From: a virus
IMG/VR virus record: IMGVR_UViG_3300046167_000526
Location: 1-34,922 of that record
Direction: 5' to 3' (one strand)
Length of the DNA: 34,922 bases
The notes under the pieces were generated by a model. That model had not been told where the DNA came from. It made no database searches and saw only the letters and a list, made by a program, of their open reading frames with translations. Shown piece after piece: positions 1-23,487 of the stretch. The translations under genes and the position numbers were made by a program. The stretch's first letter is position 1; each line of letters begins with the position of its first letter.

Positions 1-84
1 ACTACAACAAAACCTGTTATATTGGCTCATATAGATGCCTGGAAGAACGAATTAGAAACAATTAAACAATTTACAAATACATAA
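1..84 (+). CDS. C-terminal end of an unidentified gene (partial)
   Basis: An open frame enters from the left edge and gives 27 residues ending ...ELETIKQFTNT before a TAA at 82-84. The A of that stop is the first base of the nrdB ATG (TAATG), which indicates translational coupling and a shared operon. The visible tail has a short hydrophobic stretch (PVILAHI) followed by a charged helix. It is too short to assign to a family. A redox partner or another nucleotide-metabolism protein would fit the neighbours, but nothing in these residues shows it. Confidence 0.6.
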   Translation, partial: TTTKPVILAHIDAWKNELETIKQFTNT

Positions 85-1055
85 TGGGATTATTTGATAA
101 AAGAATAGCCTACAAGCCTTTTGAGTACCCTGAATATTACACCGAAGGTTGGTTAAAACAAGCTCAAGCATTTTGGTTACACACTGAAATCTCAATGCAA
201 AGCGATATAAAAGATTGGAATGAAAAACTTAATGAAAAAGAAAAAAACCTCGTCGGAAATATTTTACTTGGGTTCGCTCAAACAGAATGCGCAGTTTCCG
301 ACTATTGGACTCAAAAAGTTGTTGGATGGTTTCCTAAACACGAGATACAGACAAATGGCAATGATGTTTGGATCACAAGAAACTGTACATGCAGTTGCTT
401 ATAGTTATCTTAAACGAAACATTAAAATTAGAAGACTATGAAGCGTTTTTACACGAACCTGCTACAGCTAGAAAGATTTGATAATCTTGTTGCTTATGAA
501 GGAAAAAGTTCAGTTAATATTGGTAAGTCTCTTGCTGTTTTTTCTGCTTTCGCTGAAGGGGTTAGCCTTTATTCTGCTTTTGCTGTACTATATTCTTTTC
601 AATTAAGAAATTTACTAAAAGGTATTGGACAACAAATGAAATGGTCAGTAAGAGATGAATCATTACACAGTAAAATGGGTTGTCAATTATTTCGTCATAT
701 GTGCGAAGAAGATAATCAATTACTGAGTTTATGTCGAGAAGATATAATCAAAGCTGCTGAAACAATGGTTAATCTTGAAGTTAAATATATAGACAAGATG
801 TTTGAAATGGGCGATATAGAAGGTATATCATCTAATGATCTTAAACACTTTATAAAAAAGAGGGCAAATGAAAAACTTGTGGAACTTGGTTACGTCGATT
901 TGGGCAACTACTTCGCGTATGACACTAAAGCAGCGAGTAATCTTGATTGGTTTTACCATCTTACCGGGGGTGTCACTCATACTGATTTCTTCGCTATTAG
1001 GCCAACAGATTATTCGAAAGCTAACGAAGGAGAAGACTTCGATGACATGTGGTAA
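84..1055 (+). CDS. nrdB: Class Ia ribonucleotide reductase small subunit, interrupted by three +1 frameshifts
   Basis: NrdB holds the di-iron centre and tyrosyl radical that start ribonucleotide reduction by NrdA, supplying dNTPs for phage replication. Joining the frames gives a 322-residue protein of normal length. It has ligands E68, E99, H102, E157, E191 and H194 (from TEC, QETVHAVAY, FAEG, RDESLH) and the radical tyrosine Y106, so the full active site is encoded. The gene is not one open frame. Extra bases are needed at 348-351, 409-415 and 470-479 to follow the protein; their sum of three restores the starting frame. Unshifted reading stops at TAG 402-404, after 106 residues. The start is fixed by the TAATG overlap with the upstream gene. 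The C-terminus (...GEDFDDMW) looks native. The family call is secure; whether the gene is functional, decayed or mis-sequenced is open. Confidence 0.9.
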
Positions 1056-1092
1056 ATTTCTGTAAGTAACAATGAAATTATAGAACAATTAT

Positions 1093-1335
1093 ATGAAAGA
1101 TATACTTAGTAAATTAGTTAGACAAAAAAGGTTAACACCTGTAAAAAGACTAGCAACTAGAGTAGGTTATATGGGCAGTGGTTTTTTAATCGCTGCTCAA
1201 TGGACTATAGATCCTAAATTATATATAATAGGATTTATATTAGTTATGGTACAAACGGCTTCAAGAAAACAATGGAATCTTGTAGCTTTAAATATGAATG
1301 GGCTTATAGCCTGGTTAACACACTCAATATTATAA
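1093..1335 (+). CDS. Small two-helix membrane protein between nrdB and nrdA
   Basis: This 80-residue protein begins with a basic stretch (KLVRQKRLTPVKRLATR) followed by two hydrophobic segments at about residues 26-42 and 44-59, then a polar-aromatic tail (RKQWNLVALNMNGLIAWL). That layout suggests an integral inner-membrane protein with a positive cytoplasmic N-terminus. It starts 37 nt after nrdB and its TAA shares an A with the nrdA ATG (TAATG at 1333-1337), so it is co-translated with the reductase genes. Unlike both neighbours, it has no frame break. I do not recognise the family. The tail faintly resembles membrane transporters of the PnuC kind, but this is too weak to use as a call. Confidence 0.65.
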   Translation: MKDILSKLVRQKRLTPVKRLATRVGYMGSGFLIAAQWTIDPKLYIIGFILVMVQTASRKQWNLVALNMNGLIAWLTHSIL

Positions 1336-3056
1336 TGTGGAACAATGAATGGAAAAAAGGAGAAGATTACCCTGCGTGGGGTAATACGGACGTATACAAG
1401 AAGACAATATCCGGGGGATATTTATTTGACGGAGAAACGCCTAGAGAGGCATACCAAAGAGTCGCTAAAACAGTTGCTCGTAGACTTTATAAGCCAGAAA
1501 TGGCTGAAACGTTTTTTAACTATATTTGGAATGGTTGGCTTTGCCTTGCTTCTCCAGTGCTTTCCAATACTGGTACAGATCGCGGTCCTTCCTATTAGTT
1601 GCTTTGGTATCGACGTTGCTGACAGCTATACAAGACATAGGTCAGTAAAAATTTAGAAATGATGCTACTCGCTAAGCACGGCGGTGGAGTAGGTATCGGT
1701 ATAAATCAAATAAGACCCGCTGGCGCTAGAATAACAGGTAATGGAACATCAGACGGAGTCGTACCTTTCTGCAAGATATATGACTCAACAATTCTTGCAA
1801 CTAATCAAGGGAGTGTCCGTCGTGGAGCTGCCTCAGTTAATATCAACATTGAACATGATGACTTCGAGGAGTGGCTTGAAATCAGGGAACCTAAAGGAGA
1901 TGTTAACAGACAATCGCTTAATCTACATCAGTGCGCAATTGTTGGTGATAAGTTTATGCGAAAGCTTGAACAAGGAGATAAGGAAGCAAGATCTAGATGG
2001 AGTAAATTACTTAGAAAGCGAAAAGCAACTGGAGAACCGTATATTATGTTTAAAGGAAATGTTAACAAAGCAAATCCAGCAGCATATAAAGACAACGGAT
2101 TAAAGGTGCACATGACTAATATATGTTCAGAAATAACATTAACAACTGATGAAAACCACAGCTTTGTATGCTGTTTATCATCATTAAACTTAGCTAAATA
2201 TGAAGAATGGAAAGACACTAACCTTATATACCACGCTACGTGGTTTCTTGATGGGGTTATGGAGGAATTTATTCAAAGAGCAAAAGGACTTAGAGGTTTT
2301 GAAAATGCCATTCGTTCTGCTCAAAAAGGACGAGCACTCGGATTGGGTGTACTTGGATGGCACACGTATCTCCAAGAAAAGGGAATACCTTTTGAAGGTT
2401 TACTTGCTCAGTTTGAAACTAGGAAAATATTTTCACAAATCAAAATTGAAAGCGAAAGAGCCTCGAGAGATCTTGCGGAAATTTACGGAGAGCCTTTATG
2501 GTGTGTTGGAACCGGTATGCGTAATACTCATTTACGGGCTATTGCTCCTACTGTTTCTAATAGCAAGCTTAGTGGTAATGTTTCTCCTGGTATTGAGCCG
2601 TGGGCTGCGAATGTTTTTACAGAGCAGAGTGCGAAGGGGACTTTTATTAGGAAAAACCCGACGTTAGTTAAATTATTAAAGAAACATAAACTAAACAACA
2701 ATGAAACGTGGAATAAAATATTGGCTGACGGAGGTAGCGTACAGGGTATCGATGCTTTGGATAGTATTACTATGGGCCATGACATTCCAGTTAAAGAAGT
2801 TTTTAAAACTTTTAAAGAAATTAATCAATTGGAATTAGTTAATCAAGCTGGACTGAGACAACAATACATAGATCAGTCAGTTAGTTTAAACTTGGCATTT
2901 CCCTCTGAAGCTACACCTAAGTGGTTAAACAAAGTTCATTTTGATGCTTGGAAAAAAGGTGTTAAAACCTTGTATTATACTAGAACAGAATCTGTTTTAC
3001 GTGGTGATATAGCTCAGCAAGCAATGAGTGAAGATTGTTTAGCTTGTGATGGCTAA
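1335..3056 (+). CDS. nrdA: Class I ribonucleotide reductase large (catalytic) subunit, interrupted by three +1 frameshifts
   Basis: NrdA reduces ribonucleotides to deoxyribonucleotides using the radical from NrdB. Joining the frames gives 572 residues, a short form lacking the N-terminal ATP-cone of cellular NrdA (about 760 aa), as in many marine phages. Catalytic features are present: C89 in LPISCF (first redox cysteine), N261/C263/E265 in NICSE, a cysteine pair at 278-279 (CCLSSLNLA), the radical-relay tyrosines 546-547 in TLYYTRTES, and a C-terminal CLAC (567-570) that would be re-reduced by a thioredoxin or glutaredoxin. Three extra bases at 1584-1590, 1624-1627 and 1643-1646 break the frame around C89. 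Unshifted reading stops at TAG 1596-1598. From 1659 to the end the gene is a single clean frame of 465 codons. The start (MWNNEWKKG) follows the TAATG overlap with the gene before. Confidence 0.9.
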
Positions 3057-3210: not shown

Positions 3211-3531
3211 CTATTTACTTAATTCATTAATAACTTTTTGTATTTCTTTAGGATCTATAGTTAACTGCATCGTTAAACCAGCTTGCCATATTTTTTTTAA
3301 CTTATTGTTTTTATCAAATAATATTATAGCAGGTACTGATCTTACAGCTTCTTTAAATTTTTTAGGTTGCGAGTCATAGTCTACTTCTAGTATTTTTGCA
3401 CCCCTTATTAATCTTAAAAACTTGTAATCGTTTTTATGGTTCCAGTCTGAGTTCATATAGAGTAATGTAGGCTCTTGTGAAAACAAATTAAAAGATAATA
3501 TAAATGCAATTAAAATTAAAATATTTTTCAT
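3211..3531 (-). CDS. Exported thioredoxin-fold protein lacking the CxxC
   Basis: This 106-residue protein has a 19-residue signal peptide (MKNILILIAFILSFNLFSQ) of flavobacterial style, so it should act in the periplasm or envelope. The remainder follows the thioredoxin fold: a first strand (PTLLYMNSDW), a middle strand (AKILEVDYD), then the cis-proline loop SVPAIILF at P67 and a last strand/helix (KKIWQAGLTM). Where thioredoxins have WCGPCK, it reads WNHKND, and the mature part has no cysteine. A disulfide reductase role is therefore excluded, and a binding or structural role is more likely. It is the last gene of the late operon, 2 nt after the preceding stop. Family assignment is by pattern; function is unknown. 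Confidence 0.7.
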   Translation of the reverse strand: MKNILILIAFILSFNLFSQEPTLLYMNSDWNHKNDYKFLRLIRGAKILEVDYDSQPKKFKEAVRSVPAIILFDKNNKLKKIWQAGLTMQLTIDPKEIQKVINELSK

Positions 3532-3533
3532 GA

Positions 3534-3815
3534 TTACTTGTTTATTATTTCAAATAGTTTTTCATCTATTTTATCTAGTTTTTTACTGTTATTGTCTACT
3601 TTTTCATTTATGTTTATTATGGTTTCTCGAACAAGCTGATCTTTTAAATCATATTCTGTTCTATCTATTGGAGGTTTTGGCAATTCTTTAGCTAGCTGTA
3701 TATCTGATTGCAAAGCAAAATACACTGATGCTAAAGATATAGCTCCACCAACTATTATACCTATTGTTTTCAAGTCTAATGTAACCTGTGTGTTTTCTGA
3801 TATTTTATTAGTCAT
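3534..3815 (-). CDS. Single-pass membrane protein with coiled-coil tail
   Basis: The protein is 93 residues long. A short polar N-terminus is followed by one hydrophobic segment (about residues 17-36, IGIIVGGAISLASVYFAL), a proline-containing linker (KELPKPPIDRTEY), and a C-terminal heptad-like helix rich in N, K, D and I (residues 62-92, with VDNNSKKLDKIDEKLFEIIN). This arrangement is common among phage lysis accessory proteins (spanin-like or holin-associated) and small virion membrane proteins. It lies in the late operon near the M15 endolysin, which suggests an envelope or lysis role by context only. I do not recognise a named family. Confidence 0.7.
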   Translation of the reverse strand: MTNKISENTQVTLDLKTIGIIVGGAISLASVYFALQSDIQLAKELPKPPIDRTEYDLKDQLVRETIININEKVDNNSKKLDKIDEKLFEIINK

Positions 3816-4252: not shown

Positions 4253-4612
4253 TTAATAAGTCCATAATACGTTTTGTGCTTTATCTTTGTCTATATCAGC
4301 GTGAATAAAAGTCTTAGCAATACCAATTCTTTTAAATCCAACTTCTTTTAATATACTTGCTAATTTAAACCTGTCAGTAGAATTATTACATGCAATATCA
4401 ACCGCTAGACCTTTTGTATGAGATGACGCAGGTGTACCACCTACTTTAGCATTATGCTTTGCAGTTCTGTAACCTGAGTTAATAACAATAGATTTGCCGT
4501 ATTTCTTTCTAACAACATCAAGCATGTTAAGTAATTCTTCGCTCATCAACTGACCACTACCCTGAACATCAGGAGAGTCAAATTCTTCGTGTGTAAAATA
4601 TTTTAACTTCAT
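4253..4612 (-). CDS. M15-family D,D-/L,D-peptidase endolysin
   Basis: This 119-residue single-domain peptidase should cut peptidoglycan cross-links or stem peptides at lysis. The M15 signature is complete: SGYRTAKHNAKVGG (46-59), SSHTKGLAVDI with zinc ligands H65 and D72, and FIHADID with H104 and catalytic-region D106. The length fits stand-alone phage M15 endolysins. It has no signal peptide, so it needs a holin to reach its substrate; a holin candidate lies at 33819-34220, at the other end of the late operon. Its ATG shares one base with the stop codon of the giant virion protein gene, so the two are translationally coupled. Confidence 0.9.
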   Translation of the reverse strand: MKLKYFTHEEFDSPDVQGSGQLMSEELLNMLDVVRKKYGKSIVINSGYRTAKHNAKVGGTPASSHTKGLAVDIACNNSTDRFKLASILKEVGFKRIGIAKTFIHADIDKDKAQNVLWTY

Positions 4613-7600
4613 TATTTACTCATTCTTTTAAGTTTTTCAATTCTTTCTAATCTAGCTTTTTCTTCTTTTTCTTTCTTTTTTCTAGCTCTTGTTGCTTTTG
4701 CTTTTTCTGTACCTTCTATTTTTCTTTTAGCTTTAGCTTCAGTTTTTATAAGTTCATGCTCTTCATTTTCTGCACCTACATCCCAAGATCTCCAACCTAA
4801 AGCAAGAGCTAATCTTTGCCAAACGGTATTTCTATAATCTAAAGCTTCCGTTAAAGCATTCACTTCTGTTACAGCTCTATCTAAAGGTAAGTTTGTAATA
4901 CCTTCAGCTACAGCACCCAACACTTTGTATGATGGGCTTAAATTAAATTTACCGTCTATAGTAACATCCCATCCTCTTTTCTCAATAACATCTTTTTCAA
5001 ATTTCTTTGTTTGAATACCGCTGTAAACTTTTCTACCTTTTGATCCAATAGATGGAGCTAGATTAAAAAGAGATAATATTGTATAAGCGTGATCAGCCAT
5101 AAATCCTTTTTCATCTTGTTTATCCCACTCTACAGCAAAGTTTTTGAGAGTAGATATAAAAGCTCCAGGTAAACCAAATCCTCCTTTTAAAGTAGTATCA
5201 ATCATACCTTGTATTATTCTAGCCTGCTTTGTGCTATACACTTTTCCATACTTTTCTAATTGTTCTTTTTCAGTAAGTTCGTCATCTTCTTCTTCAAATC
5301 CAGGTATTAAAGCGAATAAAGCGTTTTGTAATGCAGAAAATATAACACTTTGAATAGTTCCGTAATATATAATTTGACTTAAATTAGAAAAATTACTTTG
5401 TGATAGCGTTTGCCCAGGCTTTCTTCTTCTGTTTTTTATATCTAAAGCAGCTTTCTTTATAGATCTGTTTAACTGTATAGGTGTATTTTGGAACGCTAAA
5501 AGTAGTCTACCTGCAGTACTTGCTTGATCAGACGATATTAAAGCTGGATCCCCTGACTGTTGAGTTTCTTCAGATATTTGACTAAAATCTTTAAAAGCCA
5601 TTTCTTCCGCTTGCTCTTTAGTGTATAAAGCTTCTCCTTCTTCGTTTACTTTTTTCAAATAAGATTTTATTCTATTTCTATAGAATGTAGCACCACCTGC
5701 TGCAATAGCAAAACTATCCGCTATTTGTGTAGGTAAAAACCCGATTTTCAATAAATAGCTTAACGCGGCTGTTGCTTTATTTTTAGACCCTTTAACCGCT
5801 CTTGCAATTTCAGCTTCATTAACATCACTTTTTAAACCAGATCTTCTTTGTTTTAGTTTAGGTGAATTAAATAACGTTGCAAAATCAGACCAGTATTGTT
5901 TTTGGTTAGCAAACGCGGCAGCGGCTTTTATAGGATTATTATCTGACCAATTAATAAAGTTAACTGTTGACAATGTTTGTAGCAACGCTGATCTTCTATT
6001 GAAAAACATTATTGCTCCAATAGAATTATTAATCCAGTTGTTCCATTTATTAGTATTATTAGTAGTAGTAGACGGTCTATTTGTACCGTTTTTCATTCTA
6101 TATAGAATATCCTTTAAAGCATCTTTGGTAGGTTCACCAAATCCAGCTTGAATTTTATTAAGATTATCCTCGCTAAATATTATGTCTGCATTTTCAATAA
6201 ATTCTGATAAGAATTCTTTCCTACCTACTTTTTCAGTTAAATTATTCAAATCAGACAATATAGTCTCTGCATCCCAAAAATCTCCAGGCTTAGCCCATTT
6301 AGGTCTTTTTGCTATTTGTTGCAATTTCCTAGCATACTCACTTAACTCAGCATCGTTATTTACATATTCAACTAGCTTTTTTTGATCTATTTCAGACAAA
6401 CCTGGTATGTCATATCCAGAAGCTTCCCATAAAGCAACCCTTATAGCTTGATCATGCGTAAATTCAGTTTCTGGTACAAGTTTACCAAGTTTCTTTATAA
6501 CAGGTCTCATTTGTTTATTAAGTGCCTTAAAGTCGTCCTTAAACGATTGCCTAGTTTCTTCAATAGCTCTTATACCTTTAAAATACGGATCTATTAAAGC
6601 ATCTTTAAAAAACTTTTGATCAGCTTCCCCTTGTTTGCCTTTACCAGCGAAAGTATAAGAAGTTAATCCTTTAAAGTCATCAAGAGATGAAGGTATAAAT
6701 AATTTAAACTTACCTTTATTCTTACCTCTCCTGTTTGCTATTGTTCCGCTAATAGTTTCGTCTGCAGCAATACCCGTGCTTCTTTCTAGCATTTTATTGA
6801 ACGTGCTGTTCATTGACTTGCTAAATTTAACGCTAGGTTTGTAAACTTTGTTTTTTTGGTTAAAAGATTCTTTGACGGTTTTTAATTCATTCATTTTATC
6901 AACAACAACATCCTTAACTCCAGCTGTTACTCTCTCTGCATAATACTCTGTTGATTGAGGAAAACCTACTTCTCTTTTTTGTATTATTTCTATTGTTTTT
7001 TCATTTACTTTTGGTAATGCAGGTGATTTACCATTTTTACCAATCCACTCAATTGTTTGTATATAATTATTTTCGTCTAATCTTTCAATTTTAACGTCAA
7101 ATGTTGTAACGATTTTACCTGTTGTTAAATCTTTAGTGGTAGTAAATGACGATGCTAGTACTCCATCAACGTATTTAGATTTTTTACGGTTAACAGCTTT
7201 TCCACCATTGTTCATTTTAGTAGGTGTGTCTTGAACTGTTAAAGCAAGCTTTCCGTCTTTATAAACTTTTGCTTCAATAAGCTCTTTATTCAAATCATAT
7301 ATCTTATAAGTAGCTTTTCTACCCATAAAGTCACCTTCGCCGTAGCCAACTATATCAACTCCACCTTGTGAATTTATTTCACCTCTTGTGGTTAGTCCAT
7401 CTTTCTTACCTAAATTTATTTGTAAATTTGCTGTTGGTTTATCAAATCTATCCCACCACTTCATATCAGTGCTACCGTCTCTGAAGGATATTAACTTCCC
7501 GTTTTGAAAAGCTACTACATATCCATTGCCATCTTCATTGTAATTTTTCCACTGCGTACGAGCGGTATCTAATTCTGACTTATCATTTGGTTTTCTAGCG

Positions 7601-10600
7601 ATCAAGCACCAACCATTGAAATCTTTACCCCAATTACTATCAGCTACTTTTCTCATCGCCATTTGCCCGGCCTTAGAGTCAACTACATCATATATGGTTA
7701 CGCCTTTAGGTAAAGATCTTTTATTACTAAACTCTTTTACGGTATCTGGGTTTATTCTCCTTGCTTTTTCTTCCTTAGCGAATTTATTTATTAATTCATC
7801 TGGGTTTTTATAAGCATAAGGATCTATTTTATTCACCTCAGATAATCTAATTGCTTCTTCTATTTTGTAACCGTCTTCTGGAAATATAGTATAACCATTA
7901 ACAGTATAATATAAAGCTAATTTTTTGTATTTAGACTTTTTATTATCTGGAACTTTTAATCCATCAGCCCATTTAAAAAGCTCATCAACTTGACTAGGTA
8001 TGTCTTTTAAATCAGGCCTTTTATTACGTAGCACATTTTCATATTCTTTTCTTTTACTTTTAGAAAACTGTATACGTAGTAGTGATTCATGATTGCTGTC
8101 AGGTTCAAGTCCAATTTCGTTTAAATCAACTGCATCAGATTTAGAAGATTTAAGAGATGTTGATTTAAGAGCTTTCTCAAAAGATTTATCAACAAAAATA
8201 CTAGATTTACTCTCAAGTTTTTTTGCACTATCATTAGTTAAAGTAGGAGTAGCTGAACGCATTAAAATAACATACGTCTTTTTATCAGGATTATCTTTAT
8301 TGTACCATCTTTCATCAAATTTCTGCCTAATAAACACCTTTCCGTCAAACTTTGCTATATCTAAATTTAAAGGGTTTTCATTTAACATGAAGTCACCTAG
8401 ATCGCTAAAAGATATATAATTAACAGGAGTTTCCTTGTCTGCATAGTATTCCTTAACAATACCTGTGTCTAATATTAAATTTCTAGTGTCAGTGCCTTTT
8501 AAAAGATTAGCTACGTTGGCGTAAAAAACGTCGTGATCTACCCTGTAGTTACCAGTTTGGGTTAAGGTTACTTTTTTATCATTTAACAGTTTTTCTAATT
8601 CATTATATACATTTTGTACATTTTTGTTTTGTAGATCATTTTTTAAAATCTTTTCCTTGTACTCTTCAGATATATTTTTGTTTAATTCATTATTTTTTCC
8701 TTGCCCTTTAAGTATAAACTTTCCTAGCCTAGCCGTTTTTCCTGATTTTATTTCCCATGCAATCTCAAGTCCCTTGTATTTGAATATTAGATCCGGCTTT
8801 GAAGAGTCTACTTGCAATTCTGTTTGTAGCACAACCAGTCCAGGTATTTTTTTTGCTATTTTTACTATGTTGTCGATTGCTTGTTGTTCAGTTGCTTTCC
8901 ACCCCTCTTCTTTTATTTTATTTAAAAATTCAGTGTATGGATCTATAACAAGGTTTGTAAGCCTGTTAAAATCGTCTTCAGGCATTATTTCTCTCAAATT
9001 AGCAATTGCTATTGATCTTTGAGTGTTAGTTTCGGCAGAGGTTATTTTATTAGCAGACTCTATTATTTGCTCATTAGACACACTAAACTTAACGGTACCT
9101 CTGTCAGCGTCTCTAAGTATTTGATTTACAAAATTGTCATTTAGTACTTCGCCTTGAGCTTCTTGATTTCCTTCAAAAGCTTTACTTATAGCAGAATTTT
9201 CATTTTGAATTTCTTTTGTAAAAATTTCAAAAGCTACTTCTTCAGCTATAGCTTTACCTAGAGCTTCTCTTTTACCTCTTATAAGTTTTCCTTTTTCGTC
9301 AATAAATAAACCTACAAAATCAGCATCAGAAACTTTGTCAGCAGGCACTCTTCTAACTATCTCATTACCAGCAGTAGCTCCTCTAACTAACGTTTTTTCA
9401 CGATCAATCTTCTGACCGACCCATTCTGGATATGGTACAAAGTTTGGTGCAAATTCTTCTTGCACTACTTCTTTACCTCCAACGTTTACAGTTACTTTCT
9501 TGCCAGTAAACTTACCACCTACAGATTTTTCAATTGCTTGAGGAATACCGCCACTTACTTTTTTACCGTTGTCTTTACCCATTAAAAAAGTAGTAGTCAT
9601 GTTCTCTACGATAGCTTTCTTATTTTTTATAAGATTCTTTTCATAAGTACCATCCTTTAACTTACCTAGTCTCTGTATAACAAGTTTAGGGGCAGCCTCA
9701 GGGTCTCCTACAACTTTTCCTATGTTTTTCCTAATCTCAGCAATTAAAGGTGTTGTAGCAGCATTAGCTCCTCTTTTATCTGTCATCTTAGTTGTTAAGT
9801 TCGACAGCACATTAGTTAGCTTATCTGTTATAGCTGTTACAGTAAAGTTAGGTATAACATTACTTTTAGTAATTGGAGTGTATTTTCTTTTTTCTTTTTC
9901 TTGAATAGTTGTATCTTCTTTTGCTGCAATATTTTTAGCTACGCTAACATCTTCTTTAAATCCACCTTCACCTTCTTTCTTAAATTTAGCCAAAGCTTCT
10001 TTCACTCTGTTTCTTACACCGTACTGACTACCTATTATATAGCCACCTAAATCATCATTTGATTCAGGATTAAAAGCCATTATATTCTTTTTTAGTTGAA
10101 CACCTGCAACTTCTGTAAAGAAGTCATCCCAACTTTTACCGTAAACATTGTCAGCAACAACGCCGTAACCAGCAGCGATCTTTTTAATTAAAGGGTTAAG
10201 CATACCTTTATCGATGTCATCTATGACCTTAACAGCATTTTTTTCTTTAAATTCTTTATTTGTTGTACCTAAAGGCACCATAGATTTTAGCTGATCACCA
10301 ATTCTTTTCTCATTTTTCTTAGTGTCTTCTTTAATTTTTTCTTTGATCTCTGTACTTACCGCAGGGTTTGCTGTTTCTTTTTTCTTAGCTAATCTTATTT
10401 TTGTTTCTAAATTAGTTTTAGCTGTTTGAAAATCTACTTCATTGTCAAAATCAAACTCATCCAAGTTATCTAATTGCTCTTGCAATTCTAATGATTTACT
10501 AGACTTAATATCAGTTTTAATTTCAGCGTCTATTTTCTCTTTAACTAATTTTCCTTTAGCTTGTTTTTCTGTAATTGCTTTTTGAGCTTTAGTTAATTTC

Positions 10601-12825
10601 CCTTTTTCTATGCTTTTATTGTAATCTTTTACGAAATTGTAAACATCTTTACCGCTATTAAACTTTATACCCGTGAGTCCAGCGTTTTGTAAAGCTCTAC
10701 GAATTACATCACCAATTTTTGTAAATACGTTTTCATTAAATTTTATATCACCAGTAGCGATAGCATCTGAAAACAAAGTCAAAACCTCTTCGCTCTGAGT
10801 AGCTTTATCTGATTCTTTATATCGCTTTAATCTATTAGCAAACTCACTGTTTTTAATTTGATTAGCATCAATTTTGTTTATATATTCGTTTAAAGACGTA
10901 CCTAAAGCTATTTGTGTTTCAGGTGAGTCTTTTACTGTTTGAAATAAAGTAGCATGTAGAAATTCATGAGCGGCTACATTCACAGCAAAATCCTTATTAG
11001 CTATTTCTTCGTTTATAACTATGGTTTGCTTACCAGTTTTAGAATCTTGCAGCACATAACCATGTTCTGAAGCTGCTTTTTTTATCAAGTTCCTATCTTT
11101 AACTATTTGATCCGCTTGCTTCTGATCTTTAGCTATTTCTATGTTTACAGATTTAACGTCTTCAGCAATTTTCATTACTTTTTCTGTAGTATTTCTAACT
11201 ACAGTAGCAGCAAGTTCGTTGTCTATAGTTTTTACTCTTTCTATTTGAGGAGTAGTTAAAGCCTTGTCATTTACTCTCTTTATTTCAGAGTTTAATTTTG
11301 CTTTTTCTTTTTGTAGCTCAACAACTTTTATCTCATTATTTTCAGTTAAATTTAAAGGTTTTATCCTGTTTAAAATACCTTGAGTTTCCGCAGCGTTAGT
11401 TTTTATTTTGTCAGCTTGTTCAGAAGTGATTTCTCCATTGTCAAGCTTTGTATTTAGCTCTTCATTAAGTATTTTTTCAGAGTTTTTAATTTTAGATAAA
11501 TTAATTTCTATAGCGTCAGTTTTTGTTTCAGGATTAAAAACATCTACTATATTACTATAATCACTATTTTTTACTTGTTTATTTATTTTTACTCTGTCTA
11601 TATTTGTTTTTAAATTCCGCAACTGCCCAACTAAACTTAAAGGAGCACCTGCTTTTCCTACAACACCTTCAGATATTATATCTTTAGCGTTCATTTCTTG
11701 ACCAGCTACAAATCTTCCAGCAACTTCACCTGTACTACCACCTATCATTTCTACAGCTCCGGAAGTGGTTGCACCAGCAATTGGAGCGCCTCTAAAACCA
11801 GCTTTAGCAATTTTTCCACCAACACCTTTAGCTACGCCTAGAGTAGCCAGCTCGGTAGCAGCTATTGTAAGACCTCTACCGATTGCTTTGTTTTTTAAGT
11901 CAGCTAATCGCTCTGGGTCTTTTAGTATTTTTTTAATTTCTTTAGAGTCAAGTCCACCCGCTTCTTCTTGTAGCAACTCAGAGAAAGTAAGTCCTGTTTC
12001 CATAGCCATCATAGAACCACCCATTATGCCTGGAAGAACTCCAGCTCCACCACTAACAGCAGCACCAGTAGCGGCTCCAGCGGCAGCAGCAGCTTTTACT
12101 TGATTAGAATAATATATAGAACCTGCTTGGCTTGCTACAGAACTGATTAGCATACTAGGAAGTACTGACGGATTTTTGTAAGCACCTTTAATGAAGCCCC
12201 AAAACCCACCACCTTCTTCTTCATAAATTCTATCAAACTCTTTCATTTCAGCAGATCCTAAATTTTTTCTTGCTATTTCTTTGTTCTTATTTACAAAGTC
12301 TGCAACTTCTTTATCAGTAGAATCTCCTCCTGAAGACAAAAGGTCAAAAGCTGGCTCAACAATTTCACTCTGCTTCAGTCCTTCTTTCCAAGAACGATGC
12401 ATATCACTAAAAAAGTCCACATATCCAGGTATGGTATAAAAACTTTCGCTATCCTCAATTTTATCTTGATTAGCTAAGTCTTGTTCGTATTGCTCAAACT
12501 CTTCTTTAGTAACTTGGTAGCCATTTACAGAAAAAGGAAAAGAAGGTTGCAGTTCTAAAGATGGGTCAGCTGGCGCTAAAGGAACATCTTCGACTTTTTC
12601 AGTATCTTGTGATTCCGATGGAGTATCTACCGAAGGTGATTCCGTAAAACCTGCTTGCGATGCTGTCATTGGTTGCTGCACTGCATCCGCATCCTCTACA
12701 GTGCTTGTTGGAAAATCCTGTGGTTCGTCTTTAATAGCGATAGCATCGGGAAATCTTAATAAAAAAGACTCTACTTTATCTTCCGGCAGGTTGTAGGTTT
12801 TATTGTTTACTTTATATTTTGGCAT
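4612..12825 (-). CDS. Giant multidomain internal virion (polyvalent/ejection) protein, 2737 aa
   Basis: By size and place in the late operon this is probably packaged in the head and ejected with the DNA. Visible layout: an acidic P/S/E-rich N-terminus (1-100); a Gly/Ala-rich hydrophobic part (about 215-400) able to associate with membrane; coiled coil (about 440-600); an HEFLH zinc-peptidase motif (H620, E621, H624); a long Lys/Glu-rich part; a PD-(D/E)XK-like nuclease motif (D1345, E1358, K1360 in KPDLIF and AWEIKSG); a Trp/Gly-rich beta segment (about 1730-1950); a C-terminal helical domain (about 2050-2640) like those of large polyvalent proteins in podoviruses; and a Lys/Arg/Glu tail. 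V-K/I-Q-F-S-x-S motifs at 1245-1250, 1585-1590 and 1999-2004 lie between segments. One uninterrupted 8.2-kb frame supports good sequence quality here. Domain activities are inferred, not shown. Confidence 0.85.
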   Translation of the reverse strand: MPKYKVNNKTYNLPEDKVESFLLRFPDAIAIKDEPQDFPTSTVEDADAVQQPMTASQAGFTESPSVDTPSESQDTEKVEDVPLAPADPSLELQPSFPFSVNGYQVTKEEFEQYEQDLANQDKIEDSESFYTIPGYVDFFSDMHRSWKEGLKQSEIVEPAFDLLSSGGDSTDKEVADFVNKNKEIARKNLGSAEMKEFDRIYEEEGGGFWGFIKGAYKNPSVLPSMLISSVASQAGSIYYSNQVKAAAAAGAATGAAVSGGAGVLPGIMGGSMMAMETGLTFSELLQEEAGGLDSKEIKKILKDPERLADLKNKAIGRGLTIAATELATLGVAKGVGGKIAKAGFRGAPIAGATTSGAVEMIGGSTGEVAGRFVAGQEMNAKDIISEGVVGKAGAPLSLVGQLRNLKTNIDRVKINKQVKNSDYSNIVDVFNPETKTDAIEINLSKIKNSEKILNEELNTKLDNGEITSEQADKIKTNAAETQGILNRIKPLNLTENNEIKVVELQKEKAKLNSEIKRVNDKALTTPQIERVKTIDNELAATVVRNTTEKVMKIAEDVKSVNIEIAKDQKQADQIVKDRNLIKKAASEHGYVLQDSKTGKQTIVINEEIANKDFAVNVAAHEFLHATLFQTVKDSPETQIALGTSLNEYINKIDANQIKNSEFANRLKRYKESDKATQSEEVLTLFSDAIATGDIKFNENVFTKIGDVIRRALQNAGLTGIKFNSGKDVYNFVKDYNKSIEKGKLTKAQKAITEKQAKGKLVKEKIDAEIKTDIKSSKSLELQEQLDNLDEFDFDNEVDFQTAKTNLETKIRLAKKKETANPAVSTEIKEKIKEDTKKNEKRIGDQLKSMVPLGTTNKEFKEKNAVKVIDDIDKGMLNPLIKKIAAGYGVVADNVYGKSWDDFFTEVAGVQLKKNIMAFNPESNDDLGGYIIGSQYGVRNRVKEALAKFKKEGEGGFKEDVSVAKNIAAKEDTTIQEKEKRKYTPITKSNVIPNFTVTAITDKLTNVLSNLTTKMTDKRGANAATTPLIAEIRKNIGKVVGDPEAAPKLVIQRLGKLKDGTYEKNLIKNKKAIVENMTTTFLMGKDNGKKVSGGIPQAIEKSVGGKFTGKKVTVNVGGKEVVQEEFAPNFVPYPEWVGQKIDREKTLVRGATAGNEIVRRVPADKVSDADFVGLFIDEKGKLIRGKREALGKAIAEEVAFEIFTKEIQNENSAISKAFEGNQEAQGEVLNDNFVNQILRDADRGTVKFSVSNEQIIESANKITSAETNTQRSIAIANLREIMPEDDFNRLTNLVIDPYTEFLNKIKEEGWKATEQQAIDNIVKIAKKIPGLVVLQTELQVDSSKPDLIFKYKGLEIAWEIKSGKTARLGKFILKGQGKNNELNKNISEEYKEKILKNDLQNKNVQNVYNELEKLLNDKKVTLTQTGNYRVDHDVFYANVANLLKGTDTRNLILDTGIVKEYYADKETPVNYISFSDLGDFMLNENPLNLDIAKFDGKVFIRQKFDERWYNKDNPDKKTYVILMRSATPTLTNDSAKKLESKSSIFVDKSFEKALKSTSLKSSKSDAVDLNEIGLEPDSNHESLLRIQFSKSKRKEYENVLRNKRPDLKDIPSQVDELFKWADGLKVPDNKKSKYKKLALYYTVNGYTIFPEDGYKIEEAIRLSEVNKIDPYAYKNPDELINKFAKEEKARRINPDTVKEFSNKRSLPKGVTIYDVVDSKAGQMAMRKVADSNWGKDFNGWCLIARKPNDKSELDTARTQWKNYNEDGNGYVVAFQNGKLISFRDGSTDMKWWDRFDKPTANLQINLGKKDGLTTRGEINSQGGVDIVGYGEGDFMGRKATYKIYDLNKELIEAKVYKDGKLALTVQDTPTKMNNGGKAVNRKKSKYVDGVLASSFTTTKDLTTGKIVTTFDVKIERLDENNYIQTIEWIGKNGKSPALPKVNEKTIEIIQKREVGFPQSTEYYAERVTAGVKDVVVDKMNELKTVKESFNQKNKVYKPSVKFSKSMNSTFNKMLERSTGIAADETISGTIANRRGKNKGKFKLFIPSSLDDFKGLTSYTFAGKGKQGEADQKFFKDALIDPYFKGIRAIEETRQSFKDDFKALNKQMRPVIKKLGKLVPETEFTHDQAIRVALWEASGYDIPGLSEIDQKKLVEYVNNDAELSEYARKLQQIAKRPKWAKPGDFWDAETILSDLNNLTEKVGRKEFLSEFIENADIIFSEDNLNKIQAGFGEPTKDALKDILYRMKNGTNRPSTTTNNTNKWNNWINNSIGAIMFFNRRSALLQTLSTVNFINWSDNNPIKAAAAFANQKQYWSDFATLFNSPKLKQRRSGLKSDVNEAEIARAVKGSKNKATAALSYLLKIGFLPTQIADSFAIAAGGATFYRNRIKSYLKKVNEEGEALYTKEQAEEMAFKDFSQISEETQQSGDPALISSDQASTAGRLLLAFQNTPIQLNRSIKKAALDIKNRRRKPGQTLSQSNFSNLSQIIYYGTIQSVIFSALQNALFALIPGFEEEDDELTEKEQLEKYGKVYSTKQARIIQGMIDTTLKGGFGLPGAFISTLKNFAVEWDKQDEKGFMADHAYTILSLFNLAPSIGSKGRKVYSGIQTKKFEKDVIEKRGWDVTIDGKFNLSPSYKVLGAVAEGITNLPLDRAVTEVNALTEALDYRNTVWQRLALALGWRSWDVGAENEEHELIKTEAKAKRKIEGTEKAKATRARKKKEKEEKARLERIEKLKRMSK

Positions 12826-12838
12826 AATTTTATTTTAT

Positions 12839-14281
12839 TTAATTTTCTGAAACTTCTAACTCAGCAAGTTCTTCATCTGTAATTGGAATTATCCCCTCTT
12901 CATTACCTTTATTTATATTATCAACTCTGTTTTCCCATTTATCTAAAGCAGATTCTTTATCTTCTTTACTTACTCCTTGAACATCATAACCTAACTCAAG
13001 AGCTAGCTTTTTGAAATCTCTTGGGCTTTTTAAACTTGATAAGTCCTCCCATTTATTTCCGTTTTTTTGTTGTATTACCCAAGACCCAACATCTTCTTTC
13101 CATTTAGCTTGTACTCCTGTTGTTATAGAAGAGGGGATTATTTGCGGAGTAGGAATTCCTTTACCATCCCACTTTTGAAGAGCTTTAAATTGTTTATCAA
13201 CTTTTGCAGACATTTTTTCTAGTCCACTAAGTCTAGGCGCAGATCCTTTTTTATCTTTTTTATCTTCACTTACTTTAGCAAATATATTATAGGATTTTTT
13301 TGTTTGATGCATCAGTGAATTTACTAAAGCATTTTTAATTAATTCATTTTTTCCTTCTCCAGTTAAGTCATCATCATAATCAAGATCTGGCTTATTACCT
13401 TTGTCAAGTGTATTATTATATAATCTTATTTTTTCTCTAGGAGATAACCCAGCTAGTACCATATCAGCATTAGGTGCTAATTGTTTTCTAAAATAATCTT
13501 CAGTAACTTTATAGCCCGTGCCTTTACCATCTGCCCCAACAAAAGACCCCGCATCTTTTCTATATTCCCCAAATCTCGAAACAAAATCATTTGTGTTCAT
13601 AGTTACATTAATAGCTTCAGTCATTTCCTTTGTAACATCAGGAATCACAGGTGGCATTTGCGTAGTCCCTACGTTGTCGTTTATAACACTACCTACAAAC
13701 CTTTCGCCATCTTTTGTTTTCTTATAAACGTCTAAAGAAAAAACAACTTGTCCGTTTTTATTAATTTTATATTTAGCTTTAGTTCTTCCTTCTGATTGAT
13801 TTGCTAATACTGAAAGCTTCGCATAAAGCTCAGGGTTTTCTTTAGGGTCTATAGCGCCTGGTGTACCAGGTATTTTATTGACTTGGTCAAGTGTTGCTTC
13901 TTGAGCCATGGCTGTATTTTTTAATGTGTTAGCCATAGTGTCTCCAATATTTTCCATGCTGTTGATGAATGTTTTTTCTTCAGCGGTTCTTTTAGCTGGA
14001 TCTTTCATTAACAATTTATTCATTAAGTCAAGTTGCGAATCTAGGTCTCCAAAATCTGCGGTAGGATTTTTAGATTGCGTTTGCATTATAGAGTTTTGAG
14101 CATCAGCAACTCTTTTGTCAGCTTCAGCTCTAATAGCAGCCGTCTTAGCCGCATTATCAGCATGTATTTTGTTTATACTAGTGACAACACCTGTTCCTAT
14201 ACCTGCTAAAGTTTTTTGCAAGTTTTGTTCAATCTGTCCAGATTGTCTGTCTATATATTGTGTTGGATTTCTATAACTCAT
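12839..14281 (-). CDS. Putative internal virion / cargo protein (480 aa)
   Basis: The protein is soluble, lysine-rich and largely helical. Its N-terminus (IDRQSGQIEQNLQKTLAGIG) is amphipathic and followed by an Ala-rich helix (residues 38-65), a Lys/Asp-rich centre, a W-containing beta segment (VQAKWKEDVGSWVIQQK, about 400) and an acidic C-terminus. There is no enzyme motif or membrane segment. It lies between a coiled-coil candidate ejection protein and the giant virion protein, with gaps of only 13-19 nt. This position in short-tailed phages is usually taken by head-internal proteins released with the DNA. The role is inferred from position and composition only; a structural tail role is the alternative. 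Confidence 0.6.
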   Translation of the reverse strand: MSYRNPTQYIDRQSGQIEQNLQKTLAGIGTGVVTSINKIHADNAAKTAAIRAEADKRVADAQNSIMQTQSKNPTADFGDLDSQLDLMNKLLMKDPAKRTAEEKTFINSMENIGDTMANTLKNTAMAQEATLDQVNKIPGTPGAIDPKENPELYAKLSVLANQSEGRTKAKYKINKNGQVVFSLDVYKKTKDGERFVGSVINDNVGTTQMPPVIPDVTKEMTEAINVTMNTNDFVSRFGEYRKDAGSFVGADGKGTGYKVTEDYFRKQLAPNADMVLAGLSPREKIRLYNNTLDKGNKPDLDYDDDLTGEGKNELIKNALVNSLMHQTKKSYNIFAKVSEDKKDKKGSAPRLSGLEKMSAKVDKQFKALQKWDGKGIPTPQIIPSSITTGVQAKWKEDVGSWVIQQKNGNKWEDLSSLKSPRDFKKLALELGYDVQGVSKEDKESALDKWENRVDNINKGNEEGIIPITDEELAELEVSEN

Positions 14282-16704: not shown

Positions 16705-19700
16705 TTATATAATATAACAATTACTATTTGGGCCTGTTCCATATACAGCATCTCCAAATTTCACATGAAAAATCCCTGCGTTGGTGCCGCCTCCGCAATT
16801 AGCGCCTGCCATTTTAGAAGCAATAACCCTGTATTCTCCAATAGCGTCAAATTCCCAATAGTCCTCAACAAAAGCAGGTCCGCTATTGTCAATTGATATT
16901 CTCTCATAACCAGTAGGTGACGCAAAAGTATTACCATTAGCTAACTGAGCCGTAGCCCAAGAAGAACTACTCGTTGCTCTATATTGAACTAAATAATCAA
17001 CATAAATATCATCACTTAAAACTGTTTCTCTTTGCAGGTAAGGTTTTATATACATTTTACCTTGAGTTAAAGCTCCTGTTGTTTTAGGATTAAAATTAGA
17101 TCTATATTTAGCGTTGTATATTTTATTTGGAGGATATGCCGTGTTGAATGGCGTTCCCGCGTAAGTACCGCTAACTTGTTCATTAGTTCCGTAAGCAAAA
17201 AATTGATACTCTATATTTTCATTACATTCAGCGTTCGTACCTCCTTGTCTACCAGCACAAATAGTTTGAGGAACTGGATCTGTGCCAGCAGTGAATGAAA
17301 TAGTACATGTGTTAGACGAACCAAATCCATTAGCGTCTGTAACTTTAACAATTATGCTATACGCATCTTCATCAACCAAAGTGCCTGAATTAGCGGTTAA
17401 AACACCTGAGGAACTTATGCTAAATCCATTTAATATAGCTTGTGGGTTACTAGAATCTAATTCAAAAAGTAATTCGCTAGCTTCATTACCTCCGCTGGTA
17501 TTACTTCCGTTTTCAGCTGTAAAACTATAAATTGTAGACGTGCCTGTAGTTATACCTGTTAAAGTTAGCGGACAAGTTGCAGGCAAGGTAAATGTTGGTT
17601 GCTCGTTGGTTAACGTAGCTGTATATGTTGTGTTATCAGTATACACTGTTCCAGAAACAGGTTCATAAGTAGTTTGAAAAGTTAAATTGTAAATATCACT
17701 AGAGGGGTTATCAGCTGAGTCTTCACTGTACCAAAAATATGTTGCGGCTGCTGTCTTTAACTGGTACTGAGCATCTATATTTGAATAAACCAGCTGGAAT
17801 TGACTAGCTATATTGTTGTTTTGACCTACATCGCTAGCTCTATAAGCAGACAGTATAACAGGAGCTGATGTAAATAAAGCGTTGTCTGTTATATTTGTTC
17901 CTGATCCATCTTTCCAAATTATATTACTACTACCTATTTGACTTTCCGGAGCAAGACTTTCTGAAAAAGAAGCAAAATTATTTCCATCAATACCTATAAT
18001 TCCTACATATTGATTGTTTATTATTTCATTTAAAACAGCTACTTTACCTTGAAGCGATGTTTCATAAAATAACTCTAAAACAGACTCAAATGGTTTTGTT
18101 TCAGCTATTGATAAAAAAGGCTGCATGCTAACTATTGAGCCGGTAGCTGCTCTATCTTTATTCGTTACATAAGCCCCTATAGGCCCAGGATGAGTGGGTC
18201 TTGTTTGCGGTTTTGGTGTTTTTCCGTTCTGTGTGGTACTTATTTGTAAAATAAAAGGATTAGAGTCTGAATCGTATAATGGCTGTAATATAGGTGATTG
18301 CCCCCAGGGTATAGATCCTGTGGGGTTAGTATTTTCTTCAACTCCTGTTACCGCCCCTCCATACGGCGGTGTTTGGTAAGTATAGCTGCTAGTTGTAACA
18401 ACAGAGCCATATTCTCCTTCTGGAGCATTGGCTACAAAAGGTATACCTGATATTTCTAAATCTCTGACTGTAGATATTGTTGTAACTTCCTGCCTTATTA
18501 AGCCTGGGTAGTATTGTTTATTCCAAGGTTCAAATTTTTGTGGATAACCATAAGGCCTATCACCCACTGCAGCGTTTTTGTTTATAGCCGGGTTATTTAC
18601 TCTTATAAAAAGACTTTCACTACTACTATATTCTCTATCATTAGGGCCTACTTCATTAAGATCCCTAGGAACTTTATTTATATTGTCACTTAGCAACACT
18701 GAAAACGATGTTTTATCTTTTTCTGTTGAATTAATCACAGGATAACCATCTACAAATCCCGGTAAATACACATTATAATATTCTTGTTCTTGCTGTTTAA
18801 CAACTATTTTGTACGAATACCAACCTAAAGGATTATAATTACTAGAGGTGGAGTCACCATTGTAAATACCTGGTTGACCACCCGTGGTTTCTGTACCTAT
18901 AGCAGAATCAATTCTAACACTTAAAGCGTCTCCTAGCCAGTTTATAACTTTAGAATTATTTTCTTGTTGAGCAAATGTTTTATATGGAGCAAATACAGTT
19001 GATCCACCTTCTTCGTTTTCATTATAATCATGAGAGGATAGTATTACATTTGATTGCCTGCCGTATTTGTCAGCTAATATAAATCCTACCTGATAAGTTC
19101 TGTTCTGTTTTAAAGTATGAGACGGGTATTCTATAGTGTTAACGCTATAAGCGTCTCTGTCCTTAACTATAGCCGCGTACGGTATATCAGAAGGGCTCGA
19201 GTGTTTGTCTATATAGTTTCCGTAGACAACTCTATTACCTATAATTTCCTGAGATAATGCCTTTACAGGCACTTTGTCATACACTCTAGTAATATCATTA
19301 TTGGGAAGAGTTTTATAAGGTTTGCTAGAAGCGTAATTATATGGATAATAATAAGTATCATTATCCCCATGTACAGCGTCATACCACTCTATGTATTCTA
19401 AGTTATTTGTTTTATTAGGTAAGTTTACTATATCTACAGTGTTTAAAACTTTCACTGCTAAAGCATCTGATTCTTTATAAAGTATATCTATATCTTTTAT
19501 TAAAAGATTATCTATATTTTGTTGTAGAGTATTATACGGTAGCGGTATTTTTAATAATACATTTTGAACGTTATTTTCAAACCAGGCAACTATTGTAGAT
19601 TTGTAAGCGTTATCCATATCTTCGGTTAAAGAATCTGTTCCTCCACCGAAGTTACTAAATTGTTTAGGTATAAATATAGGCTGAGTAAAAGGAGCCATTA

Positions 19701-20943: not shown

Positions 20944-22146
20944 CTAGTGTTTTATCCATTTAGATTTACCTCTCATTACTTGAACTATCTCATCAAGTTT
21001 TATATTTGATAATCTTAATTTAGCGTTTCTTAATTTAGCACTTCTTTCTTGCTTTAATCTTCTTACTATATATTCAGGTTGGTTTATTCTAGAAGCTACC
21101 ACAGCGTGGCTTATATGAGCATATAGAGCCTCCTCCGCTAGTTTAGGAACTTTAGTTTCCATATCGGAAGCTAGACCGTCAGAAATATACTCTAAAACTA
21201 TAAGTGCCCCGGCTAAATTACTAGAAAAAGATATTTTACCTTCTCTGTGATTTATAGTAAACCATCCATTAACTTGAGCATACTGAGGATCTATTCCGTA
21301 GTTCTGTCCTAAAAGCTGTTCATCCCAACCCCAACTGTCATAACCTTCATTGTATAGATCTTCTAAATCACCTTGATTTATTAAAGTGTCTTCTGCTGTT
21401 CGCCATCTTTCTTCTGTTATCGATGTTCCTTCAATATTGTTTCCAAAATTGTCTTGTGTTGGCACACCTTTTGAATCTTGTACAGGGTTTTCAAACGGAT
21501 TCGTAGTTAAATTGTTTGCGGGGTATATAGGTCTTTTTACACCTAATTTATCTATCCAAGATATTTTAGTGTAGTTTACATAGTCTTGAGGTATCACCAC
21601 ACTCAGTCCGGGAGGTATGTTTAATTCTTGAGACTTAATACTTTTTAATGTATCGTAGCTAAATTCTTGTAACCCGCGCTTTGCATGAAAAACAAGATCT
21701 GTTCTTTTGCAACTTGTTATTAATTTACCGTCCCCTACGTAAGCAACCATAAAGTTATTTATAATATCGTCAAGCTTTATGTAAGAATAAGATCCGTAGT
21801 TTTCCTCAACAGTATTACCGTAAGCATCTCTGTTTCCGTATTCACCACCGCTCAATATTTTTAATTGAACAACTACACTTGTGTTAGCTGCTAGGTTTCC
21901 TGTAAATGTTATTGTATTACCTGATACAGTGTAAGGTAAAGTATATTCTGTATATGTTAAAACACCTGCGTCTGCGGTGTATAATTTAAAGTTATTTAAA
22001 GCATAATTTGGCTGAAGAGGATCATAACTACCTAGCACTAATTCAGTGTCAAAGGTAGTCGTGAAGGCTTGCCCAGTACCAGCTGCAGATAAAAACTTTT
22101 GTACACCTGCGTAATATTGCTGATTATTTTCTGTGATTAAACCCAT
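20944..22146 (-). CDS. Ring / head-to-tail connector protein, extended paralogue (400 aa)
   Basis: Residues from about 115 on match the 192-aa protein encoded at 22909-23487 along its length: LDDIINNFMVAYVGDGKLI, KRTDLVFHAKRGLQEFSYDT and PKLAEEALYAHISHAV all have counterparts there. It differs by a 115-residue N-terminal beta domain (YYAGVQKFLSAAGTGQAF onward) and an insertion of about 100 residues in the middle, starting near the YPANNLTTNPFENPVQD part. It ends in basic helices (RRLKQERSAKLRNAKLRL). It belongs to the duplicated module described separately and is followed within 6 nt by the 1410-aa tail gene. A role in the tail ring stack is inferred from position. Confidence 0.65.
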   Translation of the reverse strand: MGLITENNQQYYAGVQKFLSAAGTGQAFTTTFDTELVLGSYDPLQPNYALNNFKLYTADAGVLTYTEYTLPYTVSGNTITFTGNLAANTSVVVQLKILSGGEYGNRDAYGNTVEENYGSYSYIKLDDIINNFMVAYVGDGKLITSCKRTDLVFHAKRGLQEFSYDTLKSIKSQELNIPPGLSVVIPQDYVNYTKISWIDKLGVKRPIYPANNLTTNPFENPVQDSKGVPTQDNFGNNIEGTSITEERWRTAEDTLINQGDLEDLYNEGYDSWGWDEQLLGQNYGIDPQYAQVNGWFTINHREGKISFSSNLAGALIVLEYISDGLASDMETKVPKLAEEALYAHISHAVVASRINQPEYIVRRLKQERSAKLRNAKLRLSNIKLDEIVQVMRGKSKWIKH

Positions 22147-22908: not shown

Positions 22909-23487
22909 TTATTCAGAAAAGTTAGTAAAAATTAATCTAGATTTTGATCTTTCTAATTTGTCTATTTTTTCTATTAATAATCTTTGTAGTAAGTTTGGAT
23001 CTGTTTTTTCTCTATTTGCTAATATAGCGTAAATCATACAAGCATATAAAGCTTCTTCAGCTAGTTTTGGAATTGCAGCAGATTCATCTGTTGTAAGCGA
23101 ATTTGATAAGTAGGTTAATACAAAATTAGGATCTCCTGTACTTCCTGGGTCAAAAGATATAGTTTTTGTGCTGTAGTTTATTACAAACTCTTCTTGGCCT
23201 GGATTTGCAGCAACTTGTTTATAAACATCCCCGTCTACAATTATTGAAATTATACTGACAAAATCCGCGGGTAAAGCATAGCTTAATGGTAAGTTACCTA
23301 CATCTACCGTGAATTTACTTTTTAAAGTTTCATAAGCAAATTCTTGCAGACAACGTCTAGCGTGAAATATTACTTCTGTTCTCTTAGAATCTGGTATAAG
23401 TTTTCCAGGTCCAGTGTATGATATTATAAAGTTGTTTATTACATCATTCAATGATATAAAAGCATTAGTTGATACTGTTGTTGCCAT
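22909..23487 (-). CDS. Ring / head-to-tail connector protein, short paralogue (192 aa)
   Basis: An N-terminal helix (FISLNDVINNFIISYTGPGK) leads into KRTEVIFHARRCLQEFAYET, then a beta section (LPLSYALPADFVSIISIIVD ... FVLTYLSNSL) and a C-terminal helical part (PKLAEEALYACMIYAI, KLERSKSRL). The helix-beta-helix order fits head-completion or tail-adaptor proteins (P22 gp4-like). It pairs with the preceding 229-aa gene (6-nt gap), and the pair is repeated just downstream. The longer copy at 20944-22146 carries an extra N-terminal domain. The connector function is inferred from order in the operon and fold-like pattern. Confidence 0.65.
   Translation of the reverse strand: MATTVSTNAFISLNDVINNFIISYTGPGKLIPDSKRTEVIFHARRCLQEFAYETLKSKFTVDVGNLPLSYALPADFVSIISIIVDGDVYKQVAANPGQEEFVINYSTKTISFDPGSTGDPNFVLTYLSNSLTTDESAAIPKLAEEALYACMIYAILANREKTDPNLLQRLLIEKIDKLERSKSRLIFTNFSE

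Follow-up and report, generated by a model that had tools for sequence, protein, structure and literature searches.

Six single-base insertions in the ribonucleotide reductase genes of a phage contig are very probably errors near the contig end

Can a phage make a class I ribonucleotide reductase from two genes whose reading frames are each broken three times, or do the breaks come from the sequencing? This question is raised by an IMG/VR virus record (IMGVR_UViG_3300046167_000526), a linear contig of 34,922 bases that was analysed at its full length and is called the window in the following. The window is phage DNA, with late genes for terminase, portal and virion proteins on the minus strand. 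The nearest phage record to its terminase is one environmental Caudoviricetes record (64%); the next seven matches listed are Flavobacterium phages with 45% each, and the match set, in which 87 records were counted, includes Cellulophaga, Tenacibaculum and Maribacter phages. Two minus-strand frames, 20944-22146 and 22909-23487, look like paralogues, since proteins of relatives that match one of them also match the other with about 34-53% identity; the product of 20944-22146 matches a PHROG virion protein.

An earlier note on this DNA had described three single-base +1 insertions in each of the two genes, and this observation is confirmed. It was borne out by three methods: three-frame translation, in which NrdB and NrdA each pass through three frames in order, multiple alignment with 15 nrdB and 14 nrdA relatives, and frameshift-aware protein-to-DNA alignment, which covered residues 1-323 of 323 in NrdB and 1-575 of 575 in NrdA with three +1 events in each (Table 1). 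The exact inserted base is ambiguous at several sites, because the codons of the relatives differ there. Above gathering score, the Pfam family Ribonuc_red_sm (PF00268) matched both outer fragments of nrdB, and Ribonuc_red_lgN and Ribonuc_red_lgC (PF00317, PF02867) matched nrdA. With three +1 steps per gene neither protein has an uninterrupted frame in the record, and it is correct, as had been noted, that unmodified decoding would yield neither subunit.

Table 1. Coordinates of the reductase locus and of the six +1 steps in the window
Feature	Position	Strand	Remarks
nrdB, class I ribonucleotide reductase small subunit	84-1055	+	frame broken by three +1 steps
nrdB, +1 step 1	351	+	extra base 350 or 351, depending on the relative used; absent from 15 of 15 relatives
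nrdB, +1 step 2	409	+	placement varies with the relative; absent from 15 of 15 relatives
nrdB, +1 step 3	469-470	+	placement of the base ambiguous; absent from 15 of 15 relatives
80-aa ORF without Pfam match, in the nrdB/nrdA gap	1093-1335	+	within the affected interval; frame intact
nrdA, class I ribonucleotide reductase large subunit	1335-3056	+	three +1 steps, all in the first fifth
nrdA, +1 step 1	1587	+	placement varies with the relative; absent from 14 of 14 relatives
nrdA, +1 step 2	1624-1627	+	placement ambiguous; absent from 14 of 14 relatives
nrdA, +1 step 3	1646	+	in-frame TAA directly after; absent from 14 of 14 relatives

The translation of the small ORF between the two genes, compared by eye, agrees with five relatives (L002, L003, L005, L008, L009) without a break. 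At four other loci (L011, L012, L013, L020) the blocks matching nrdB and nrdA are separated by only 11-21 bases.

Outside the two reductase genes, no tested gene of the window is frame-broken, as the earlier note had stated. Fifteen ORFs of the window (5808 aa in total), a set without some small ORFs such as 3211-3531 and 3534-3815, were put through frameshift-aware alignment against reference proteins of 150-1000 aa taken from other records; this gave six events, all of them +1 and all in nrdA or nrdB. When ORFs of five relatives were compared with the window, a procedure too blunt to resolve the steps of nrdA, only nrdB showed mixed frames on the side of the window; two further mixed rows belong to short ORFs of another record, G013, at places with breaks in G013's own sequence. 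No stop interrupts the 8.2-kb frame (4612-12825), and none of the late genes tested is broken. A uniform error rate had been rejected as an explanation, and this can be upheld, because six points distributed uniformly on 34.9 kb would fall within 1.3 kb with a probability of only about 4e-7 (calculated post hoc). The flanks at 1-350 and 1650-3056 are clean; the error rate, if errors are involved, is therefore not simply highest at the very end, which counts against an explanation by errors.

None of the insertions is conserved in the relatives that were compared. The 160 loci brought in represent 129 distinct contigs by manual count, and the following numbers are counts of locus names: no frame step was found at the nrdB site regions in 150 other NrdB loci spanning them, nor at the nrdA site regions in 155 other NrdA loci, with three loci carrying a '+2' before the nrdA start codon left out of the break count. 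The equivalent +1 events in related phages that had been envisaged thus did not turn up. Among 198 fetched loci, the unbroken form is present in 124 at nrdB site 1 and in 110 at nrdA site 3, and the +1 form of nrdA site 3 occurs in the window's own locus only. Degenerate patterns for three of the six sites (nrdB site 1, nrdA sites 1 and 3) and the literal pattern of nrdB site 1 returned no +1 form or match from the viral collection, in scans that exclude the window's own record and very near ones and so say nothing on near-identical viruses. The extra bases have no counterpart in the independent records of close relatives that were compared. In ungapped columns, both genes together contain 14 substitutions that are found only in the window, of which one (1625, itself an alignment ambiguity) lies within the shifted stretches; the breaks are therefore either artefacts or of very recent origin. 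Conservation looks the same inside the shifted parts as outside them. Because recoding, too, would leave conserved residues in the shifted frames, these residues do not separate the readings.

The comparison with the records of relatives is decisive, because like phages from metagenome 3300046167 show the same signature in other genes. A first hint came from the terminase gene: both G004 and the second of the two G013 copies have it split. The portal gene is split in three of 30 records; all three are among the six from 3300046167 or 3300047157, and none of the 24 records from elsewhere has a split portal. Simple counting of tblastn fragments proved too blunt, as it missed the window's own nrdA steps, and was replaced by a frameshift-aware aligner that was run on stretches of 24 relatives' records. 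Mechanically called ORFs, 150-1000 aa long and drawn from nine records, served as references; not all of them may be genes, a possible reason for the in-frame stops, of which each record had 1-13 and the window 4. An event was discarded if it lay within 8 residues of the end of an alignment, and the counts are of rows, not of unique places. The seven records from 3300046167 gave 47 event rows in 61,337 aa (36 +1, 7 -1, 4 +2) and the three from 3300047157 gave 20 rows in 33,744 aa (12 +1, 6 -1, 2 +2); the 14 control records from other metagenomes gave six rows in 107,165 aa (one +1, two -1, three +2). The controls were partly picked after intact genes had been seen: G003, G005, G010, G011, G012 and G014 had no event beforehand, G001 had two, and seven had an unsplit portal. 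A +1/-1 pair of G001 from an earlier frameshift-aware run is missing from the listing of the 24 records. After manual clean-up, 39 rows (32 of them +1) remain in 3300046167 versus a single -1 row (G027) in the controls. Of the 47 rows, the clean-up took out three repeats (two in G004, near 17.8 kb and at 18,491, and one in G017, at 57,287), two rows that had G033|L220|10 as their reference and three rows ahead of the nrdA start codon; of the six control rows it took out three with the same reference and two ahead of the nrdA start.

At base level, manual reading against clean relatives confirmed 17 single-base insertions and three single-base deletions in the records from 3300046167, for rows with a clean relative at 80% identity or more, which most rows of G017 and G018 lacked; in 3300047157 insertions and deletions are mixed. 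The closest parallel to the window is G008 (3300046167_000632). Its eight rows are +1 without exception, lie at 5,879-13,281 of 62,030 bases and fall in portal and virion genes, and seven of the eight were confirmed as single-base insertions against clean relatives. Its nrdA and nrdB (locus L009) show no step. Four of the events strike the portal gene, and since four +1 steps remain there the frame is not regained. In G017, 12 of 13 rows are +1 (one place is counted twice), and nine rows lie at 56.0-61.1 kb of 66.2 kb, a cluster near the contig end; the events of the window lie 351-1646 bases from the contig start. G018 (seven rows) and G021 (four rows) are likewise +1 only. The picture is not uniform, as G004 has four +1 and four -1 rows and G013 eight +1 and five -1, the events in G018 and G004 are spread out, and G006 and G016 have few events at all; the mixed and the scattered events count against the error reading. 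The genes affected in the records of 3300046167 are portal, terminase, virion and other genes, and the events are thus independent of the kind of gene. From these tallies, sets that are rich in +1 events or consist of nothing else are a property of certain records and not of the reductase genes.

G013 (3300047157_000162, L173-L179) is a contig of 129.5 kb with two diverged tandem copies of a phage genome of about 64 kb. With its several broken frames it is probably a chimeric assembly; its second nrdB is broken near the 3' end and nrdA near the start, neither at the sites of the window.

The sequence around the six sites was inspected as well. Of the two sites said to abut a stop codon, this is true in the frame being read for 1646 (TAA) only, and at the other five the next stop follows about 9 to 51 bases downstream. 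The proximity of CAG can be retained with a corrected count: it lies at or within 2 bases of four of the six sites, not three, in a parent sequence that is ambiguous. An ACAGCA-like parent motif that seemed to fit three sites was dropped, as the parent codon differs by relative. A shared signal cannot be claimed, because the parent sequence varies with the relative taken; the earlier view that no single slip signal unites the sites agrees with the six different contexts, in which we found none in common. It had also been pointed out that the insertions isolate catalytic residues. Literally this is so, as both ETVHAVAY in NrdB and PISCFG in NrdA lie between the first and the second event of their gene; as a meaningful pattern it is not supported. 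These stretches presumably hold the metal-ligand and tyrosine residues and the redox-cysteine residues, respectively, after NrdB and NrdA of E. coli. Such residues sit in the conserved cores of both proteins, and an event near them is therefore weak evidence.

What, then, do the six bases represent? If both subunits were produced by programmed recoding, with the ribosome slipping +1 several times or decoding four bases at once near the catalytic residues, the regained frame after three steps per gene and the match of the shifted-frame residues to relatives would be accounted for. We nevertheless regard this as very improbable, since no relative tested conserves any of the six sites, the scans for three of them found no +1 form, and the contexts differ without a shared slip signal; furthermore, a stop is met at once at one site and only later at the others, and events of the same kind occur in other genes of other records, including the G008 portal with its unrestored frame. 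As to a tRNA for four-base decoding, no tRNA of any kind was found in the window, which holds an incomplete genome, and 20 stretches of seven related records contained only two tRNA-Met. The narrower version, in which the bases are real and six separate +1 decoding events constitute a very recent recoding specific to this phage, has an equally slight chance of being right. Removal of the extra bases from the RNA, by editing or by splicing of one base, is the least probable of all readings. Its sole attraction is that the frame would be restored; the insertions are not conserved in any of the relatives or spanning loci compared, no Rfam family reached the gathering score in the window, and phages are not known to excise individual bases from their mRNA. 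An intron or ribozyme was rejected on the same Rfam result. Taken together, a meaningful pattern of three plus three insertions, whether by recoding, four-base decoding or RNA-level removal, is not supported, since the genes of close relatives are uninterrupted and none examined conserves an insertion, which is the second of the two findings that the earlier note had named as refuting it.

It is somewhat less improbable, although still unlikely, that the insertions are real and recent and that all six, by breaking the frames, have cost this phage lineage, or a defective genome, its ribonucleotide reductase. Both genes would indeed be dead under normal decoding, and the lack of any record found with the same insertions is what one would expect of a very young event. 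However, decaying genes normally show deletions, stops and larger losses next to insertions, and here there are six insertions and no deletion; the equal conservation of shifted and unshifted parts also speaks against it, as does the +1-only cluster of G008, whose targets, the portal and virion genes, a phage should not be able to do without.

Very probably, the six extra bases are sequencing or consensus insertion errors near the contig end and no real biological feature. They would be insertion-type errors of reads or consensus, of the kind carried by long-read metagenome assemblies, and would have arisen in a short and presumably thinly covered stretch near the start of the linear contig; the phage itself would possess ordinary, uninterrupted nrdB and nrdA genes. 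We infer from the error signature that 3300046167 is a long-read data set and that the window derives from a data set of this kind. Among the options listed in the earlier note, a local low-quality region is the best supported one, as the clustered +1-only signature is also found in G008, in other genes. That there are insertions only, and that the frame is regained in both genes, is a mild coincidence under the error reading and counts against it. A 3/3 split arises by chance with a probability of 0.25 (shares by gene length) or 0.31 (equal shares), and the portal frame of G008 is not regained; therefore, no mechanism is needed to explain the split.

Single-base insertions can thus be tightly clustered in public viral records and mimic recoding or pseudogenes; sister records, when compared, help to distinguish the cases. 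Were the bases real, the window would be an extreme case of recoding. Frame breaks dominated by +1 steps are common in the records of 3300046167 (L180-L189, L199-L212), and its gene calls therefore need care.

Among known phages, Flavobacterium phage immuto and Cellulophaga phage phi14:2 likewise possess an nrdA/nrdB pair, whose DNA is about 68% similar to the 3.6-kb query over 22-26% of its length; compared with their reductases, the frames of the window are each broken by three +1 steps. Programmed +1 frameshifting, as in prfB and antizyme, has the direction in common with the window. Programmed sites of this type are conserved, usually occur once per gene and carry a slip signal, whereas the window has six sites, none of them found conserved and with no common signal found. 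A parallel is offered by the errors of long-read viral metagenomes, as described in one study (PMC6487183). There, PacBio subreads are called rich in insertion errors, nanopore reads in errors of the insertion-deletion type. For a mock community, virus assemblies from nanopore reads contained on average 474 indels per 100 kb before polishing and 22.78 after it, and in a marine set of nanopore assemblies the polishing got rid of as many as 172,854 insertion errors and 12,674 deletion errors. Compared with the errors described there, the cluster in the window is tight and happens to regain the frame in both genes; in common with the assemblies of that study, the records of 3300046167 contain, in many genes, frequent frame-breaking single-base insertions that persist in the consensus.
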